DNA of 40,939 bases, taken from positions 1 to 40,939 of the forward strand of contig JAHJCZ010000063.1 in the NCBI GenBank assembly GCA_018812705.1, given 5' to 3'. The notes below the pieces were generated by a model. The model saw nothing but the letters and a program-made list of their open reading frames with translations, was not told the DNA's origin and searched no databases. Both the position numbers and the translations under genes were made by a program. Source of the DNA: Candidatus Omnitrophota bacterium. GTDB lineage: Bacteria; Omnitrophota; Gorgyraeia; Zapsychrales; Zapsychraceae. Below are positions 8,136 through 17,735 of this stretch, in pieces; position 1 is the stretch's first letter; each line of letters starts with the position of its first letter.

Positions 8136-9374
8136 GTGATGGCAGACAGCAAAAAGGTCAATAAAACATTGACCATAGGTCAGGCTCAAGAGTTAAAGAT
8201 CCTAAGGAAAATTGTAGATCTCACAAATACAGAATTAGATCTTAAAAAAATATTAAAAGAGACCGTAAAAGTTGTTTCTGAAATGACTAAGGCAGATTCT
8301 GTTTTTGTTTACCTTTTCGACGAAGCGAAAAAGAATCTGGTCCTGATGGCTTCTAAAACCTCTCATGCAAAAGAATTAGGCGAGGTTATTTTAAAAGTAG
8401 GTGAAGGTATTACGGGTTGGGTTGCTAAACAAAATAAACATGTTGTTATAAAGGAAGCTGCTTTTGAAGACCCCAGATTTAAAAGCTTTGATGTTCTTCC
8501 TGAAGATAAATATGAAGCATTTCTTTCGGTCCCTATAGTTTATAAGAACAAAGCAATTGGCGTAGTAAATGTCCAGCACAAAAAACCGCATGAATATGCT
8601 CAAAACACTACAGAATTGATCTCTGCGATAGCAAAGCAAATAGGTGGGGTTATTGAAAATGCTAGGCTTTATGAAGAGCAAAAGATCAAGGCTTTGCAGT
8701 TTGATAGCTTGGTGAAAGTAAGTAAGTCCATTACATCTCAGGATTATCTGGATGAGATCTTGAGCCTTATCGTTGTCGTTACTGCAGAGATGCTTAATTC
8801 TAAAATATGCTCGATAATGCTGTTAGATAAAAAAGCCAAGGAGCTGATCATTAAGGCGACGCAAAGCTTGAGTGAAGAGTATAAGAAAAAACCAAACATA
8901 AAAGTTAACGCAAGTATTAGTGGTGATGTTGTCACAAGCAAAAAACCAATAGCCATCTATGATGTTCGTAAAGAGAAGAAATATGCTTTTAGAGATATTG
9001 CAATAAAAGAAAAGCTGACATCAATGTTGGCTGTTCCAATGATCGTAAAAAATACAGCTATAGGCATTATCAATATTTATACAAAAATACCACATTCTTT
9101 TACTCAGGAAGAGATCGATGTTCTGCAGTTGGTTGCAAATCAGGCTGCAATAGCTATTGAAAATACTAAGCTGGTTGAAGAGGCTGTTAAAGCAAAAGAG
9201 GCTCTTGAGACAAGGAAGGTCATTGAGAGGGCTAAGGGCATACTGATGAAGATGGGTGGCTTAAACGAGCAAGAAGCTTATAAATTAATACATAAAAAGA
9301 GCATGGATTCATGTAAGCAAATGAAAGAGATAGCTGAATCCATTATTTTGATGGAAGAGTTGCAGCGACAATGA
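8136..9374 (+). CDS. GAF-GAF-ANTAR RNA-binding antiterminator (probable start 8136 GTG or 8139 ATG)
   Basis: Two GAF-type domains (SVPIVYKNKAIGVVNVQ; AVPMIVKNTAIGIINIYT) and C-terminal ANTAR signature ERAKGILMKMGGLNEQEAYKLIHKKSMDSCKQMKEIAESIILMEEL; no REC domain. Confidence 0.9.
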   Translation: MMADSKKVNKTLTIGQAQELKILRKIVDLTNTELDLKKILKETVKVVSEMTKADSVFVYLFDEAKKNLVLMASKTSHAKELGEVILKVGEGITGWVAKQNKHVVIKEAAFEDPRFKSFDVLPEDKYEAFLSVPIVYKNKAIGVVNVQHKKPHEYAQNTTELISAIAKQIGGVIENARLYEEQKIKALQFDSLVKVSKSITSQDYLDEILSLIVVVTAEMLNSKICSIMLLDKKAKELIIKATQSLSEEYKKKPNIKVNASISGDVVTSKKPIAIYDVRKEKKYAFRDIAIKEKLTSMLAVPMIVKNTAIGIINIYTKIPHSFTQEEIDVLQLVANQAAIAIENTKLVEEAVKAKEALETRKVIERAKGILMKMGGLNEQEAYKLIHKKSMDSCKQMKEIAESIILMEELQRQ

Positions 9375-11039: not shown

Positions 11040-13223
11040 ATGGATAGATTTAAAAAATCTTTATATATTTTTCTTGGTGCTGCATTTTTTCTTCTATTGA
11101 CAGCGAATGCTTTTGCTTCTTCTCAAGGAAGCGAAGGAGGGATAGTAGAAAGAACCAGCTTGTTGGCAATTCAGCTAAGTGTAATATTGTTTGCCGCTTG
11201 GGTCGGTAACCTTGCGTTCGCAAGGATGAAATTACCTGCAGTTCTTGGAGAGATTATTGCTGGTGTTGTCATTGGCCCTTACTTTTTAGGGGCGTATGGC
11301 TTTACTGGTTTTGAACATGGCCTTTTCCCTTTATCCGGTGATTTTCCTGTTTCAATTGAATTATATAGCCTTGCAACGATTGCATCGATCATTTTGTTGT
11401 TCTTTGTTGGCCTTGAAACTGATATTGAGACTTTCTTGAGGTTTTCTTTTGCGGGGTCTATCGTTGGTGTTTGTGGTGTTATTGTCAGTTTTATTGCAGG
11501 CGACGTTTTAGGGGTTATGTTAGCTAAAAGCCTGATGGGCCAAAATTATGGGTTTACTCATCCGTTCTGTCTTTTTCTCGGTGTTTTATCTACTGCTACA
11601 TCAGTTGGAATCACTGCCCGAATTCTATCCGAAAAAAGAAAAATGAATTCTCCAGAAGGTGTTACTATTTTGGCTGCAGCTGTTATCGATGATGTTTTGG
11701 GTATTATTATTCTTGCAATCATTCTTGGTATGGTAAAAAGCGGTCATATAGGATGGAAAGAAGTCTCCTTAATATCTCTAAAAGCTTTTGGTATTTGGCT
11801 AGGTTTTACTTTAGTAGGCCTTAAATACGCGCTAAAGTTATCTACAGCTCTTAACAAAATTAATGACCGCAACACTATTGCTATATTAAGTTTTGGTTTA
11901 GCCTTATTATTGGCTGGCATATTTGAGCATTTTGGTTTAGCTATGATCATTGGTGCATATGTTATGGGCCTATCATTATCTAAAACGGATCTTGCTTTTA
12001 TAATTCAAGAGAAGCTGGAGATGTTGCAGAAATTTTTGGTTCCGATTTTTTTCTGTGTAATGGGGATGCTGGTCAACTTGCACGAGATGGCTTCATGGCA
12101 AATACTGGGTTTTGGAATGCTTTATGTTGTGTTGGCAACACTTGGGAAGGTGATAGGTTGTAGCCTCCCCGCATTATTTCTGAATTTTAATTTTAGGGGT
12201 GCTTTGCGGATCGGAGTTGGAATGGTTCCAAGGGGTGAAGTCGCTTTGATCATTGCAGGTATCGGACTTTCAACAGGCATCATTGATGATAAAGTTTTTA
12301 GTATTGTCATGATAATGACTTTTGTTACAACTTTGATCACTCCTTTAGTTCTAGACAAGATGCTTGATTCGAAAAAGCCTGTTCTAAGAAAAGAGCAGGA
12401 AACAAAAGATGAACAAAAGACGATCAAATACGATATGCCTAGTGTTGAAACTGCTGAATTGCTTCTAAACAAAGTTGTGACTGCTTTTGAGAATGAGGGA
12501 TTTTTTGTTCATAGGATGGGTCGAGAAGGAAGACTTTATAAGATAAGAAAAGAGAGCGTCTTTATTGTAATGCGATACAGCCCGCAAAGGATGGAATTTG
12601 ATTGTAGCGAGATGGATATGTCTTTTGTTCACACTTTGTTCTATGAGGTCATAGCTGAACTTGAGCACGCGATGCAGACATTGCAGACATTAACAGACAA
12701 AAGTTCTATTGGCAAAAAGATATTTGATACACAAAAAATTATTGCAAGTCTCAATAATGAAAGAAAAAAGAAATTTCAGATCGTCTCTTCCAATGCGCTT
12801 AGTGTTGATCTAAAAAGCAGAACAAAAGAAGCAATTCTTTCTGAACTGGTAGATCTTTTAATAGAATCAAAACAATTAGACGTATCAAAGAAGGAAGAAG
12901 TCATCGACGATCTTCTAAAAAGAGAGACAATGATGTCAACAGGAATGCAAAATGGTATTGCCCTGCCTCATGCTAAAACAACAGCTGTAGACCATGTTGT
13001 TGCAGCTGTAGGTATTAGCAAGGAAGGCATTGACTATGCCTCTCTAGATAAAATACCATCTAGGATATTTGTTTTGACTTTGGCTTCAAAAGAACATCCA
13101 CATGCTTATTTGCAATCTATGTCTGAAATTAGCAGGTTTTTATCAAAAGAAGATAATAGGGTTAAGATGATCGAATGTATTACAAAAATACAATTATTTG
13201 ATGTTTTAAACATACACATGTAA
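11040..13223 (+). CDS. CPA2-type cation:proton antiporter with C-terminal PTS EIIA (PtsN-like) domain
   Basis: LPAVLGEIIAGVVIGPYFLG, multi-TM; C-terminus KREETMMSTGMQNGIALPHAKT-like EIIA with active-site-like His region. Confidence 0.8.
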   Translation: MDRFKKSLYIFLGAAFFLLLTANAFASSQGSEGGIVERTSLLAIQLSVILFAAWVGNLAFARMKLPAVLGEIIAGVVIGPYFLGAYGFTGFEHGLFPLSGDFPVSIELYSLATIASIILLFFVGLETDIETFLRFSFAGSIVGVCGVIVSFIAGDVLGVMLAKSLMGQNYGFTHPFCLFLGVLSTATSVGITARILSEKRKMNSPEGVTILAAAVIDDVLGIIILAIILGMVKSGHIGWKEVSLISLKAFGIWLGFTLVGLKYALKLSTALNKINDRNTIAILSFGLALLLAGIFEHFGLAMIIGAYVMGLSLSKTDLAFIIQEKLEMLQKFLVPIFFCVMGMLVNLHEMASWQILGFGMLYVVLATLGKVIGCSLPALFLNFNFRGALRIGVGMVPRGEVALIIAGIGLSTGIIDDKVFSIVMIMTFVTTLITPLVLDKMLDSKKPVLRKEQETKDEQKTIKYDMPSVETAELLLNKVVTAFENEGFFVHRMGREGRLYKIRKESVFIVMRYSPQRMEFDCSEMDMSFVHTLFYEVIAELEHAMQTLQTLTDKSSIGKKIFDTQKIIASLNNERKKKFQIVSSNALSVDLKSRTKEAILSELVDLLIESKQLDVSKKEEVIDDLLKRETMMSTGMQNGIALPHAKTTAVDHVVAAVGISKEGIDYASLDKIPSRIFVLTLASKEHPHAYLQSMSEISRFLSKEDNRVKMIECITKIQLFDVLNIHM

Positions 13224-13241: not shown

Positions 13242-13270
13242 TTGACAAAGGTATTTTTTTGTTGTATAGT
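13242..13270 (+). promoter_or_regulatory. sigma70-like promoter for amtB leader
   Basis: TTGACA (13242-13247), 17-nt spacer, TATAGT (13265-13270). Confidence 0.75.
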
Positions 13271-13283
13271 TTTTTTATCTTAA

Positions 13284-13324
13284 GGGCGCAGTCGTCCTCT
13301 TGAATCGAAGAAGATTCAGGGGGA
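13284..13324 (+). promoter_or_regulatory. attenuator unit 1 of amtB leader: hexaloop hairpin GGGC-GCAGUC-GUCC (13284-13297) overlapping a terminator (13295-13324 + T tract)
   Basis: UCCUCUUGAAUC-GAAGAA-GAUUCAGGGGGA followed by TTTTTT; the hairpin 3' arm UCC is also the terminator 5' arm. Confidence 0.75.
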
Positions 13325-13400
13325 TTTTTTATTGCCTTGTCATTGATCTCTTTGGTTAATAGTTTTCCAGGGTAAGAGAAGGCTAAAATTATTGGGAATA

Positions 13401-13432
13401 TTTATCTTAAATTAATGATGATTTGAGATAAA
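13401..13432 (+). promoter_or_regulatory. ANTAR P1-type hairpin, loop AAUGAU (amtB unit 2)
   Basis: UUUAUCUUAAAUU-AAUGAU-GAUUUGAGAUAAA; 13 bp incl. G-U pairs; loop A1 and G4. Confidence 0.75.
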
Positions 13433-13441
13433 CTAAATAGC

Positions 13442-13455
13442 GGACATTGATGTCC
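13442..13455 (+). promoter_or_regulatory. ANTAR P2-type hairpin, loop AUUGAU (amtB unit 2)
   Basis: GGAC-AUUGAU-GUCC; loop A1 and G4; 3' arm shared with terminator. Confidence 0.8.
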
Positions 13456-13491
13456 TCTTTTAAGCATTGTTGCTTGAAAGGGGATTTTTTT
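13453..13491 (+). terminator. intrinsic terminator/attenuator T2
   Basis: UCCUCUUUUAAGC-AUUGUU-GCUUGAAAGGGGA then TTTTTTT. Confidence 0.9.
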
Positions 13492-13493
13492 AT

Positions 13494-13507
13494 GGACAAA
13501 GTTGTCC
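13494..13507 (+). promoter_or_regulatory. ANTAR P2-type hairpin, loop AAAGUU (amtB unit 3)
   Basis: GGAC-AAAGUU-GUCC; loop A1 and G4; 3' arm shared with terminator. Confidence 0.8.
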
Positions 13508-13550
13508 TCTTTGGAACAGTTGTTGAACAATTGTTTTAAAGAGGACTTTT
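13504..13550 (+). terminator. intrinsic terminator/attenuator T3
   Basis: GUCCUCUUUGGAACAGUUGU-UGA-ACAAUUGUUUUAAAGAGGAC: long continuous hairpin incl. G-U pairs, then TTTT. Confidence 0.9.
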
Positions 13551-13598: not shown

Positions 13599-14942
13599 AT
13601 GTTTAAAGAAGTATTAACAAATAGGGTAGCATGCTTTTTTTTGTTGTTGCTTGCTGCAGGAATGACGCTGCTCTTGTCTTCTACGGCAAGTGCTGCAACG
13701 GCAGATGAAGCAATGTTCACAGCAAACAATACCTGGATGCTGGTTGCAACGATACTGGTTTTCATTATGCATCTTGGTTTTGCGACACTTGAAGCTGGAT
13801 TGACAAGATCAAAAAATACGGTCAATATTATCTTTAAGAATATTTCGATCGTTGCTATCGGGCTTTTAACATACGCGATAGTTGGCTTCAATTTAATGTA
13901 TCCAGGGGACGCTTGGATATTAGGGAAGTTCCTTGGTTTTTCAGGCTTTGGTATTGCTGCGCCTGAAGGAGCTGCCGGGTTAATAGATTATGCAGGCGGG
14001 GCATATACATACTGGACTGATTTTATTTTTCAGGCAATGTTCGCAGCGACGGCAGCTACAATTGTATCAGGTGCTGTTGCCGAAAGAATAAAATTGCATA
14101 GCTTTTTGCTGTTTTCAGTAATATTTGTGGGAATAGTTTACCCCTTTGTTGGAAGTTGGAAATGGGGAGGGGGCTGGTTAGATGCAATGAATTTTTATGA
14201 TTTTGCCGGGTCTACTTTAGTTCATTCTGTTGGTGGCTGGGGTGCTTTGGCAGGTGTTATTGTTTTAGGGCCAAGAATTGGTAAATATACAAATGGTGCA
14301 GTCAAAGCAATTCCTGGGCATAGTTTGCCGTTAGCGGCAATAGGTGTGTTTTTATTATGGTTTGGTTGGTTTGGTTTTAACGGAGGATCTGTTCTTTCTG
14401 CTGACCCCGGAGCTGTTTCTCTAGTATTTGTCACAACTACTTTAGCCGCAGCGGCAGGAATTATTACATCAATGGTCACTTCTGAAATAATTCAGAAAAA
14501 ACCTGACCTTTCTATGGTATTGAATGGTGCTTTGGCAGGTCTTGTAGGTATTACGGCAGGAGCTGATATGGTATCTGTTATGGATTCAATTATTATCGGA
14601 GGGGTTGCAGGTTTTTTGGTCGTTGTTGCCGTAATATTCTTTGACTCAAAAATAAAACTGGATGATCCTGTTGGAGCCTTATCAGTTCATTTGGTTTGTG
14701 GAATTTGGGGGACGCTGGCTGTGGGAATATTTAGTTCAAATCCAGACCATTCTTTTATAACTCAGCTGATAGGCGTCATAGCATATGCTTTAATATGTTT
14801 TCCAGCAGCTTTTTTGATATTTTCAGCAATAAAAGCAACTATGGGTATTAGGGTAACAGAAGAAGAAGAAAACAGAGGCCTTGATATTTGTGAACATGGC
14901 ATGGAGGCTTATGGTGGTTTTCAGGTTTTTAGTAATCAATAA
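13599..14942 (+). CDS. amtB: ammonium transporter
   Basis: Signal peptide; Amt core (LEAGLTRSKNTVNI, DFAGSTLVHSVGGWGALAG, WFGWFGFNGGS); C-terminal EENRGLDICEHGMEAYGGF. Confidence 0.97.
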   Translation: MFKEVLTNRVACFFLLLLAAGMTLLLSSTASAATADEAMFTANNTWMLVATILVFIMHLGFATLEAGLTRSKNTVNIIFKNISIVAIGLLTYAIVGFNLMYPGDAWILGKFLGFSGFGIAAPEGAAGLIDYAGGAYTYWTDFIFQAMFAATAATIVSGAVAERIKLHSFLLFSVIFVGIVYPFVGSWKWGGGWLDAMNFYDFAGSTLVHSVGGWGALAGVIVLGPRIGKYTNGAVKAIPGHSLPLAAIGVFLLWFGWFGFNGGSVLSADPGAVSLVFVTTTLAAAAGIITSMVTSEIIQKKPDLSMVLNGALAGLVGITAGADMVSVMDSIIIGGVAGFLVVVAVIFFDSKIKLDDPVGALSVHLVCGIWGTLAVGIFSSNPDHSFITQLIGVIAYALICFPAAFLIFSAIKATMGIRVTEEEENRGLDICEHGMEAYGGFQVFSNQ

Positions 14943-14973: not shown

Positions 14974-15315
14974 ATGAAAATGATCATAGCAATGATACAA
15001 CCTCATAAGCTGCCTGATGTAAAAAAAGCTTTGTTTGATGCAGAGATACATAAAATGACGGTTACTAATGTTTTAGGCTGCGGTCAGCAAAGGGGTTTCA
15101 GTGAGACTTATAGAGGGGTAGTGCATGAAGTTAATCTGTTAAAAAAAGTTCGCCTTGAAATCGCTGTAAATGAGAAGTTTGTTGACGATACAATAAAGGC
15201 AATTATTCAAGGTGCTAAGACGGGCAATATCGGAGATGGAAAGATCTTTGTTCTGGATCTGCAGAGATGTATAAGAATAAGGACAGAAGATGAAGGGCAC
15301 GAAGCAATAGGCTAG
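14974..15315 (+). CDS. glnK: PII nitrogen regulatory protein
   Basis: 112-113 aa PII fold sequence; YRGVV T-loop; [12 protein letters not shown]-loop; directly after amtB. Confidence 0.95.
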
Positions 15316-15370: not shown

Positions 15371-15423
15371 GGGCAATGAAGTCCTCCATATAAACATCAA
15401 TAATGTTTTTGTGGAGGATTTTT
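15371..15423 (+). promoter_or_regulatory. attenuator unit 1 of glnN leader: hairpin GGGC-AAUGAA-GUCC (15371-15384) overlapping terminator (15382-15423)
   Basis: UCCUCCAU...AUGGAGGA-type hairpin (UCCUCCAUAUAAACAU/AUGUUUUUGUGGAGGA) followed by TTTTT; loop A1 and G4. Confidence 0.85.
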
Positions 15424-15424
15424 A

Positions 15425-15446
15425 TTGAAGACAACGATGTCTTCAA
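15425..15446 (+). promoter_or_regulatory. ANTAR P1-type hairpin, loop AACGAU (glnN unit 2)
   Basis: UUGAAGAC-AACGAU-GUCUUCAA, perfect 8-bp stem; no terminator of its own. Confidence 0.85.
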
Positions 15447-15472
15447 AACTTTCTGATCAAAGTAGAATAGTC

Positions 15473-15486
15473 GGACAACGAAGTCC
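15473..15486 (+). promoter_or_regulatory. ANTAR P2-type hairpin, loop AACGAA (glnN unit 2)
   Basis: GGAC-AACGAA-GUCC; 3' arm shared with terminator. Confidence 0.85.
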
Positions 15487-15530
15487 TCTAAGCGGAAAAA
15501 TTGTATTTTCCTTCGCTTGAGGGCTTTTTT
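15483..15530 (+). terminator. intrinsic terminator/attenuator upstream of glnN
   Basis: GUCCUC(U)AAGCGGAAAA...UUUUCCuuCGCUUGAGGGC then TTTTTT. Confidence 0.85.
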
Positions 15531-15653: not shown

Positions 15654-17735
15654 ATGGATGAATTTAAAGCAATACCGGACTATTACGGCGAAAACGTTTT
15701 TAGTTTAAAAACTATGAGGAATTATTTATCTGACCAAGCATATAAGTCTTTAAGCGCAACTATTAGAGTAGGCGGAACATTGGAGCCAAAGATCGCAGAT
15801 GAAGTAGCAGATGCGATGAAGAATTGGGCACTTTCAAAAGGAGCAACTCACTTTACTCATTGGTTTCAGCCTTTGACAGGCTCAACAGCAGAAAAACATG
15901 ATGCTTTTATTACTCCTGATAATGAAGGTGGAGTGATCATAAAATTTTCAGGGAAGGAGCTTATTCAAGGTGAGCCTGACGCATCAAGTTTTCCTTCAGG
16001 TGGTTTAAGGCCGACTTTTGAGGCTCGTGGATATACTGGATGGGATCCAACATCGCCAGCTTTTATTAAAGAAGGACCGGAATCAGCTACTCTTTGTATT
16101 CCAACATATTTTATTGGATGGAAAGGTGAAGCCTTAGACAAGAAAACGCCTCTTTTACGTTCAATGAAAGCTCTTTCAAAACAAGTTTGTCGATTAGGCG
16201 AGATCTTTGGGATCAAATCAAAAGGAAAAACGGCATATGCAACTTTGGGTGGAGAGCAAGAATACTTTTTGATCGATAGAGAGTTTTATTATTCAAGAAT
16301 TGATCTTATGCAGACAGGAAGAACACTGTTCGGCAAAGAACCTGCAAAGCATCAGCAAATGGCAGATCATTATTTTGGAGCAATTAAAAGCCGTGTTATG
16401 GGTTTTATGGAAGATCTCGACAAAGAAATGTGGAGATTAGGTGTTCCTGCTAAGACAAGGCATAATGAGGTTTCGCCTGCTCAGTTTGAACTTGCGCCTG
16501 TTTTTGAACAGCTTAATTTAGCTGTTGACCACAATATGCTCCTTATGGAGGTTATGCAAAAAATTGCAGAAAGACATGATCTTGTATGTCTTCTTCATGA
16601 GAAACCTTTTGCAGGAGTTAATGGTTCGGGAAAACATAATAATTGGTCAATAGTAGGTCCTGACGATAAAAATTGGCTTTCACCAGGAGACAATCCGCAT
16701 GATAATGCTAAGTTCTTAGTGGTTCTTTGTTCGATCATTAAGGCAGTTGATACATATGCAGATCTATTGAGGGCTTCAATTGCATCAGCTGGCAATGATC
16801 ATAGGCTTGGTTCTCATGAAGCCCCACCAGCTATTGTTTCAATTTTCTTAGGCGAGCAGCTTACAGATATTATTGAACAAATTGAAAAAGGTGGAGCAAA
16901 GACTTCAAAAAAAGGCGGGGTCCTTCAGATAGGGGTTGATTCTCTTCCCGACTTACCTCGCGATGCAACTGATCGTAACAGAACATCACCATTTGCTTTT
17001 ACTGGCGCTAAATTTGAGTTTAGAGCAGTTGGCTCAAATGCTAATTTAGCAGGACCAAACATTGTTCTAAACACTATTGTTGCAGAAGCTTTAGATGAAA
17101 TTTGTGACAAGCTTGAAGGTGTTAGTAAAAAAGAACTAAATTCTGCAATTCAAAAACAATTGCAAAGTATCGTTACAAAACACAAGAGAATTCTCTTTAA
17201 TGGAGATAATTATACAGAAGAGTGGGTAAAAGAGGCAAAGAAAAGAGGTTTGCCAAATCTTAAGACGACCCCAGAAGCTTTAGAGGCGTTTAAGAACCCT
17301 GCTAATGAAAAAGTTTTAGCAAAATATGGCGTATTGTCTAAAACAGAGCTAGCTTCTAGGTATGAAGTATATAAGGAAATGTATGAATCAGTTATTGACT
17401 ATGAAGCAAAGCTATCTCTTGATATGGCAAAAACTATGATCGTTCCGGCTGTTTTTAGCTACCAAGAAGAATTGGCAGACAGTATTAAATCAGTTGAGGA
17501 GATCAATAAAACAAAATCAACTGGGTCAAGAAAACTCTTGAAAGAGATCACTGGTGAACTTGAAGGAGCATTAGTTAAGATTGACACGCTTGGTGCTGCA
17601 ATTAAGAAAGGCAAGGCCTTAAAAACTAAGGAAGCGATGACTGATCTTAGGGCGTCAATTGATGCTCTGGAAGGATTAGTTGCTGAGGATGTTTGGCCAT
17701 TAGCTTCTTATGCAGAAATGTTGTTTATGCTTTAA
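15654..17735 (+). CDS. glnN: type III glutamine synthetase
   Basis: ~693 aa; GGLRPTFEARGYTGWDPTSPAFI, NEVSPAQFELAPVFE, EKPFAGVNGSGKHNNWS. Confidence 0.95.
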   Translation: MDEFKAIPDYYGENVFSLKTMRNYLSDQAYKSLSATIRVGGTLEPKIADEVADAMKNWALSKGATHFTHWFQPLTGSTAEKHDAFITPDNEGGVIIKFSGKELIQGEPDASSFPSGGLRPTFEARGYTGWDPTSPAFIKEGPESATLCIPTYFIGWKGEALDKKTPLLRSMKALSKQVCRLGEIFGIKSKGKTAYATLGGEQEYFLIDREFYYSRIDLMQTGRTLFGKEPAKHQQMADHYFGAIKSRVMGFMEDLDKEMWRLGVPAKTRHNEVSPAQFELAPVFEQLNLAVDHNMLLMEVMQKIAERHDLVCLLHEKPFAGVNGSGKHNNWSIVGPDDKNWLSPGDNPHDNAKFLVVLCSIIKAVDTYADLLRASIASAGNDHRLGSHEAPPAIVSIFLGEQLTDIIEQIEKGGAKTSKKGGVLQIGVDSLPDLPRDATDRNRTSPFAFTGAKFEFRAVGSNANLAGPNIVLNTIVAEALDEICDKLEGVSKKELNSAIQKQLQSIVTKHKRILFNGDNYTEEWVKEAKKRGLPNLKTTPEALEAFKNPANEKVLAKYGVLSKTELASRYEVYKEMYESVIDYEAKLSLDMAKTMIVPAVFSYQEELADSIKSVEEINKTKSTGSRKLLKEITGELEGALVKIDTLGAAIKKGKALKTKEAMTDLRASIDALEGLVAEDVWPLASYAEMLFML

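Follow-up and report, generated by a model that had tools for sequence, protein, structure and literature searches.

ANTAR proteins act on RNA sites built from two hairpins. In the described dual-hexaloop antiterminators, P2 is preceded by a dedicated P1 hairpin (PMC3369931). The smallest unit bound by the ANTAR protein EutV is one hexaloop (PMC8934654). In Enterococcus faecalis, mutating the closing pairs of P1 abolishes induction, and lengthening the eutP linker to 14 nt sharply reduces it (PMC3369931). A successive-binding model for EutV has the recruiting hexaloop precede P2 (PMC8934654). Here we analyse a 40,939-nucleotide stretch (the window; contig JAHJCZ010000063.1 of GenBank assembly GCA_018812705.1) from an uncultured Omnitrophota bacterium, in which the leader of an ammonium-transport operon, amtB-glnK-GSIII (GSIII, glutamine synthetase type III), contains three intrinsic terminators, T1 to T3. 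The tip of T2 is a hexaloop of ANTAR type. We call a terminator tip of this kind, a C-G-closed hexaloop with a purine at position 1 (R1) and G at position 4 (G4), a crown. At roughly even confidence, the reading we consider most likely is that the T2 crown joins the P2 of its own unit as the second hexaloop of the site, forming a variant ANTAR antiterminator (P2 plus crown) that does without P1.

Structure and conservation of the T2 crown

The amtB leader contains three ANTAR antitermination units in series, presumably read by a GAF-GAF-ANTAR protein encoded ~4 kb upstream (Table 1). Each unit has a 4-bp P2 hairpin with an R1, G4 hexaloop, and the 3′ arm of this hairpin, GUCC, doubles as the 5′ end of the terminator. 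T2 comprises a 5′ arm GUCCUCUUUUAAGC (13452-13465), the loop AUUGUU (13466-13471) and a 3′ arm GCUUGAAAGGGGAU (13472-13485), followed by a U-tract. Within the loop, A13466 is A1 and G13469 is G4, and C13465-G13472 is the closing pair. An initial annotation of this DNA had placed the T2 tip, its loop and that of hairpin 3 (the P2 of unit 3), the A1 and G4 positions and a 14-nt spacing to hairpin 3 (13480-13493, after position 13479), all of which are correct by direct reading. The crown hairpin can extend to 13481, which brings the linker to 12-14 nt. Only ~8 nt lie between the end of T2 and hairpin 3, leaving no room for another P1, as had been noted.

The same annotation proposed that a held P2 would block the base of T2 and spare its apical hairpin. 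We find that, with the P2 of unit 2 held, T2 loses no more than its lowest 4 bp (GUCC), and a 10-bp crown hairpin (13456-13481) is still possible. In folding energies, P2 plus crown (-16.1 kcal/mol) is 3.3 kcal/mol less stable than T2 (-19.4 kcal/mol). Because P2 costs T2 only these four pairs, we expect the crown hairpin in either state, standing away from the U-tract in the read-through one.

Conservation was judged site by site in one congener, a sister species (G001); the amtB leaders of other genera are built differently, their orthologues often being preceded by classical P1-P2-terminator units. In the sister species the crown loop reads AUAGUU, with A1 and G4 kept and position 3 changed. 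Its hairpin 3 loop is AAGGUU, and the crown and hairpin 3 loops are 26 nt apart in both species. The initial annotation had tied its proposal to conservation of the T2 loop in homologues, and beyond this congener ANTAR-type tips recur across the order.

Upstream of P2, we found no P1 belonging to unit 1 or unit 3, and only a doubtful one in unit 2. In unit 1 a P1 is impossible because P2 starts ~7 nt past the predicted +1. The candidate P1 of unit 2 lies 9 nt from its P2 and has a U.G closure that is rare among P1s of the order (2/48). It is doubtful because the aligned stretch in the sister species forms no hexaloop hairpin on folding. A second hexaloop of some kind is within reach in the leader, as T1 and T2 both have R1, G4, C-G-closed crowns; the T1 tip in the sister species is GACGGA. 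Between 13180 and 13700 there are five terminator-like sites, T1, T2 and T3 among them, where 0.2 would be expected. An Rfam search of the leader returned no match at the gathering score, only sub-threshold ones.

Crowned units across the order

A strict P2-plus-terminator pattern, run over 86 genomes of the order, matched more than 70 units in 45 genomes, and a reversed control pattern matched nothing. Many terminator tips among these units were hexaloops with R1 and G4. A larger set was assembled on structural criteria, and its units were sorted by whether a P1 hairpin lies upstream. Hairpins with an RNNGNN loop were present in 38 of 123 units, compared with 1-5 of 123 for seven control loop motifs, so the P1 calls are reliable. 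Clustering at 80% identity yielded 120 clusters of non-redundant P2/terminator units from Omnitrophota, 40 with P1 and 80 without. Detection requires a G-C-rich P2 stem, a C-G closing pair and an intrinsic terminator, and other designs are missed.

Crowns were found in 19 of the 80 P1-less clusters and in 1 of the 40 P1-bearing ones (Fisher p=0.003; our p-values are descriptive, since the rules on stem length, closing pair and 80% clustering were picked while viewing the data). Hexaloop tips of P1-less units have G at position 4 in 29 of 44 cases, against 14, 6, 9 and 7 at positions 2, 3, 5 and 6 (p=9e-11), and those of P1-bearing units show no such bias (G4 in 3/16). The closing pair is C-G in 42 of 49 R1G4 tips and 43 of 48 P1s, versus 9 of 35 other hexaloop tips. 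Other terminators in the same DNA display no R1-G4 association (28/136, with ~30 expected from base composition). Because of the G4 excess, the C-G closure and the lack of this association elsewhere, the T2 tip is, judged from sequence, an ANTAR-type hexaloop beyond chance likeness.

These counts bear on an alternative in which AUUGUU is merely the loop of T2, a by-product of structure, and the single hexaloop of P2 suffices at units 2 and 3. Single hexaloops do bind EutV (PMC8934654), 61 of the 80 P1-less clusters have no R1G4 crown, and a C-G-closed R1G4 tip caps ~8% of unrelated terminators (21/259). We nevertheless regard this alternative as improbable, given that the position-specific G4 excess is limited to P1-less units, that closure is by C-G and that the sister species conserves the loop. 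The crown could also be a decoy, capturing ANTAR protein on terminated or leader RNA with no help to antitermination, much as the small RNA (sRNA) EutX, which sequesters EutV, has an extra hexaloop (PMC8934654). A decoy role gives no reason to expect crowns to be so scarce in units with a P1, and we consider it very unlikely.

The position of P2 relative to the promoter divides the leaders further. In 32 leaders P2 begins 10-21 nt past the -10 box; none has a P1, because there is no transcript room upstream of P2, and 18 have a crown (after clustering, P1 in 0/23 and a crown in 8/23). Where at least 30 nt separate the -10 box from P2 (n=6), a P1 is present in 5/6 and a crown in 0/6. The distance from P2 loop to crown loop is narrow, 12-19 nt and mostly 13-17 nt. 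P1-P2 loop spacings in the order run from 11 to 75 nt, many of them 14-29 nt, with linkers of 2 to 65 nt, many of 34-57 nt. Some crowned leaders consist of a single unit with a start codon shortly downstream, for example before nifH, GSIII or an ANTAR gene. Crowned units are also present in further families of the class and in other parts of the phylum (G120, G314, G156), as well as in one metagenome-assembled genome labelled Clostridia (L219).

Possible use of the crown in cis and by the next unit

The comparative data point first to use of the crown in cis, together with the P2 of its own unit. The lineage would then make its two-hexaloop ANTAR sites in either of two ways: the classical P1 plus P2, or a P1-less P2 plus the crown of its own terminator. 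We favour in-cis use because crowns hardly ever accompany a P1, because a promoter-proximal P2 leaves no transcript for a P1, and because crowned single-unit leaders have no next unit to serve. In the active state, an ANTAR dimer would hold the P2 of unit 2 and so strip T2 of its lowest 4 bp. What is left of the stem would stay as the crown hairpin, no longer abutting the U-tract, and its hexaloop, ~10 nt past P2, would be the second ANTAR contact. Kept in the read-through RNA, the crown may also supply unit 3, itself devoid of P1 and crown, with an upstream hexaloop. Unit 2 itself may depend on the T2 crown, because the candidate P1 of that unit is U.G-closed and not conserved in the sister species.

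Several points weigh against in-cis use. The 3′ arm of the crown would exit RNA polymerase at about the time the terminator is completed, leaving little time to act in cis. The successive-binding EutV model, with its recruiting hexaloop before P2, better fits use of the crown by the next unit (PMC8934654). Nor is the crown obligatory, as the 61 P1-less clusters without one attest; other solutions exist among P1-less units, going by their sequences. Finally, unit 2 of the window genome has a possible P1 (13401-13432), which would free the T2 crown for unit 3.

Use by the next unit is what the initial annotation had proposed: a relay in which the T2 crown, dispensable at T2, acts as the P1 of unit 3, so that antitermination at T2 builds the T3 site. 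We see this as a tentative possibility. A P1 would not fit into unit 3 and T3 lacks an R1G4 crown, and the 26-nt spacing from crown loop to hairpin 3 loop, shared by both species, can be set beside P1-P2 loop spacings of 11-75 nt in the order. Eight leaders have tandem units set closely together (gap ≤15 nt), the upstream one bearing an R1G4 crown, and in five of them (the window, G001, G016, G071 and G035) the downstream unit has no P1 or crown and the spacing is 26-28 nt. Transcription would also yield the upstream hexaloop well ahead of hairpin 3, an order that successive binding needs (PMC8934654) and that a crown acting in cis would not provide.

Tests of the relay across leaders are less favourable. 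Before clustering, crowns are commoner on the upstream terminators of tandem arrays (gap ≤60 nt) than on the last ones (14/25 versus 6/23, p=0.045), but after clustering the asymmetry is not significant (7/20 versus 3/18, p=0.28) and we do not rely on it. The relay-specific test was null: a crown upstream makes no difference to whether the downstream unit comes with a P1 of its own (p=1). Crowns co-occur and do not substitute for one another (both in 7, upstream only in 7, own only in 0, neither in 17), and downstream crowns appear only in leaders with a crowned upstream terminator. Crowns are likewise present in single-unit leaders. The linker here, 12-14 nt, is close to the eutP linker of 14 nt that sharply cut induction in E. 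faecalis (PMC3369931). A true relay, in which each antiterminated terminator leaves its crown as a recruiting hexaloop and downstream read-through follows only after upstream read-through, is likewise a tentative possibility to us.

The proposal that the T2 crown is the P1 of unit 3 therefore survives in its geometry, which is sterically possible, recurs in other leaders and involves a conserved crown, but it drew nothing from the relay test. The related idea that the site of unit 3 is made from the remains of unit 2's terminator agrees with a unit 3 that lacks both P1 and crown, whereas the comparative data first favour cis. In-cis use and the relay are compatible, and both may operate at once. 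Because the P1 of unit 2 is ambiguous, the sequence of the window's amtB leader settles neither when taken alone.

The amtB leader in its operon and among known systems

Table 1 Features of the amtB leader and its surroundings (positions in the window).
Feature	Position	Strand	Basis or remark
GAF-GAF-ANTAR protein, presumed regulator	8136-9374	+	Pfam GAF x2 and ANTAR, E 1.4e-20, 73 bits
Candidate sigma70-type promoter, TTGACA-17-TATAGT	13242-13270	+	11/12 consensus positions; a match alone is no proof
Unit 1 P2 hairpin, GGGC-GCAGUC-GUCC (G1, G4)	13284-13297	+	Sequence, pattern match
Terminator T1, crown hexaloop GAAGAA at 13307-13312 (G1, G4, C-G closed)	13294-13325	+	Folding, terminator search
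Candidate P1 of unit 2, stem of 13 bp closed by U.G, loop AAUGAU at 13414-13419	13401-13432	+	Doubtful
Unit 2 P2 hairpin, GGAC-AUUGAU-GUCC	13442-13455	+	Sequence, pattern match
Terminator T2	13452-13485	+	Folding z = -7.4 versus shuffles; terminator search
T2 crown hairpin, ANTAR-type hexaloop AUUGUU at 13466-13471	13456-13481	+	Sequence; conserved as AUAGUU in G001; crown statistics
Unit 3 P2 hairpin, GGAC-AAAGUU-GUCC	13494-13507	+	Sequence; AAGGUU in G001
Terminator T3, 3-nt loop, no ANTAR-type crown	13504-13546	+	Folding, terminator search
amtB ammonium transporter	13599-14942	+	Pfam PF00909
glnK P-II protein	14974-15315	+	Pfam PF00543
Second ANTAR leader, before the GSIII gene: P2 15371-15384 and terminator; P1 15425-15446 (AACGAU); P2 15473-15486 and terminator	15371-15525	+	
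GSIII	15654-17735	+	Pfam PF12437

The near-consensus promoter predicts the +1 of the amtB leader at ~13277. The presumed regulator is the single ANTAR protein match across the whole assembly. Aligned to EutV (PDB 6wsh, with the chain numbering taken as offset by 2), it has R, K, R, Y and M at the EutV RNA-contact residues R142, K143, K147, Y164 and M172 (PMC8934654). Its GAF domains may answer to an activating signal, or the protein may be constitutively active. Protein binding, the sense in which regulation runs and the unit served by the crown are inferred here from sequence, predicted structures, statistics, conservation and gene context. Adjoining the leader on its upstream side is a gene for a Na+/H+ antiporter-like protein fused to a C-terminal phosphotransferase system (PTS) EIIA domain (11040-13223). 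The sister genome has three amt genes and, ~10 kb downstream in the same cluster, a second GAF-GAF-ANTAR paralogue that is 68% identical (L022, G001:C24).

The second ANTAR leader of the operon begins with a promoter-proximal P2. Further ANTAR leaders lie elsewhere in Omnitrophota: units with crowned terminators precede nifH-family genes (L106, L121), and another lineage (G156) has arrays of two and three units at short spacing (L230, L231). In G120:C2 it is a GAF-GAF-ANTAR gene whose leader contains a crowned unit (L232/L221), suggesting that this gene is autoregulated. An ANTAR protein is encoded in 72 of the 86 genomes of the order, which indicates a widespread ANTAR nitrogen regulon in this poorly studied, largely uncultured phylum.

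If true, in-cis use of the crown would relax the requirement for two dedicated hairpins ahead of the terminator in an ANTAR site, and it would account for leaders whose P2 lies almost at the transcription start. It also bears on how two hexaloops are used, the point at issue between simultaneous-binding and successive-binding models. Our literature search, which covered few subscription journals, found no description of terminator-apical ANTAR hexaloops. This suggests that a terminator tip serving as second hexaloop is an apparently undescribed variant of the known ANTAR switch.

The closest described systems, EutV/eut, NasR/nasF and AmiR/amiE (PMC3369931, PMC8934654), share much with this locus: A1/G4 hexaloops on short C-G-closed hairpins, an overlap between the 3′ arm of P2 and the 5′ arm of the intrinsic terminator, and nitrogen-related genes. 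As in EutV-type systems, an ANTAR protein with conserved RNA-contact residues is encoded nearby. Those systems have a separate upstream P1, whereas many units here are P1-less with a hexaloop on the terminator tip, and position 1 here is A or G. The P1-P2 linker reported for eut leaders is 5-12 nt, compared with 2-65 nt in the order studied here. Actinobacterial ANTAR-target RNAs (PMC8164766) also have dual A1/G4 hexaloop hairpins, with linkers of 2-25 nt, but few of them are at terminators. The EutX/Rli55 sRNA (PMC8934654) likewise combines an ANTAR-type dual hexaloop with an additional single G4 hexaloop; it is a trans-acting, sequestering RNA, whereas the amtB leader presents stacked terminators before an operon.
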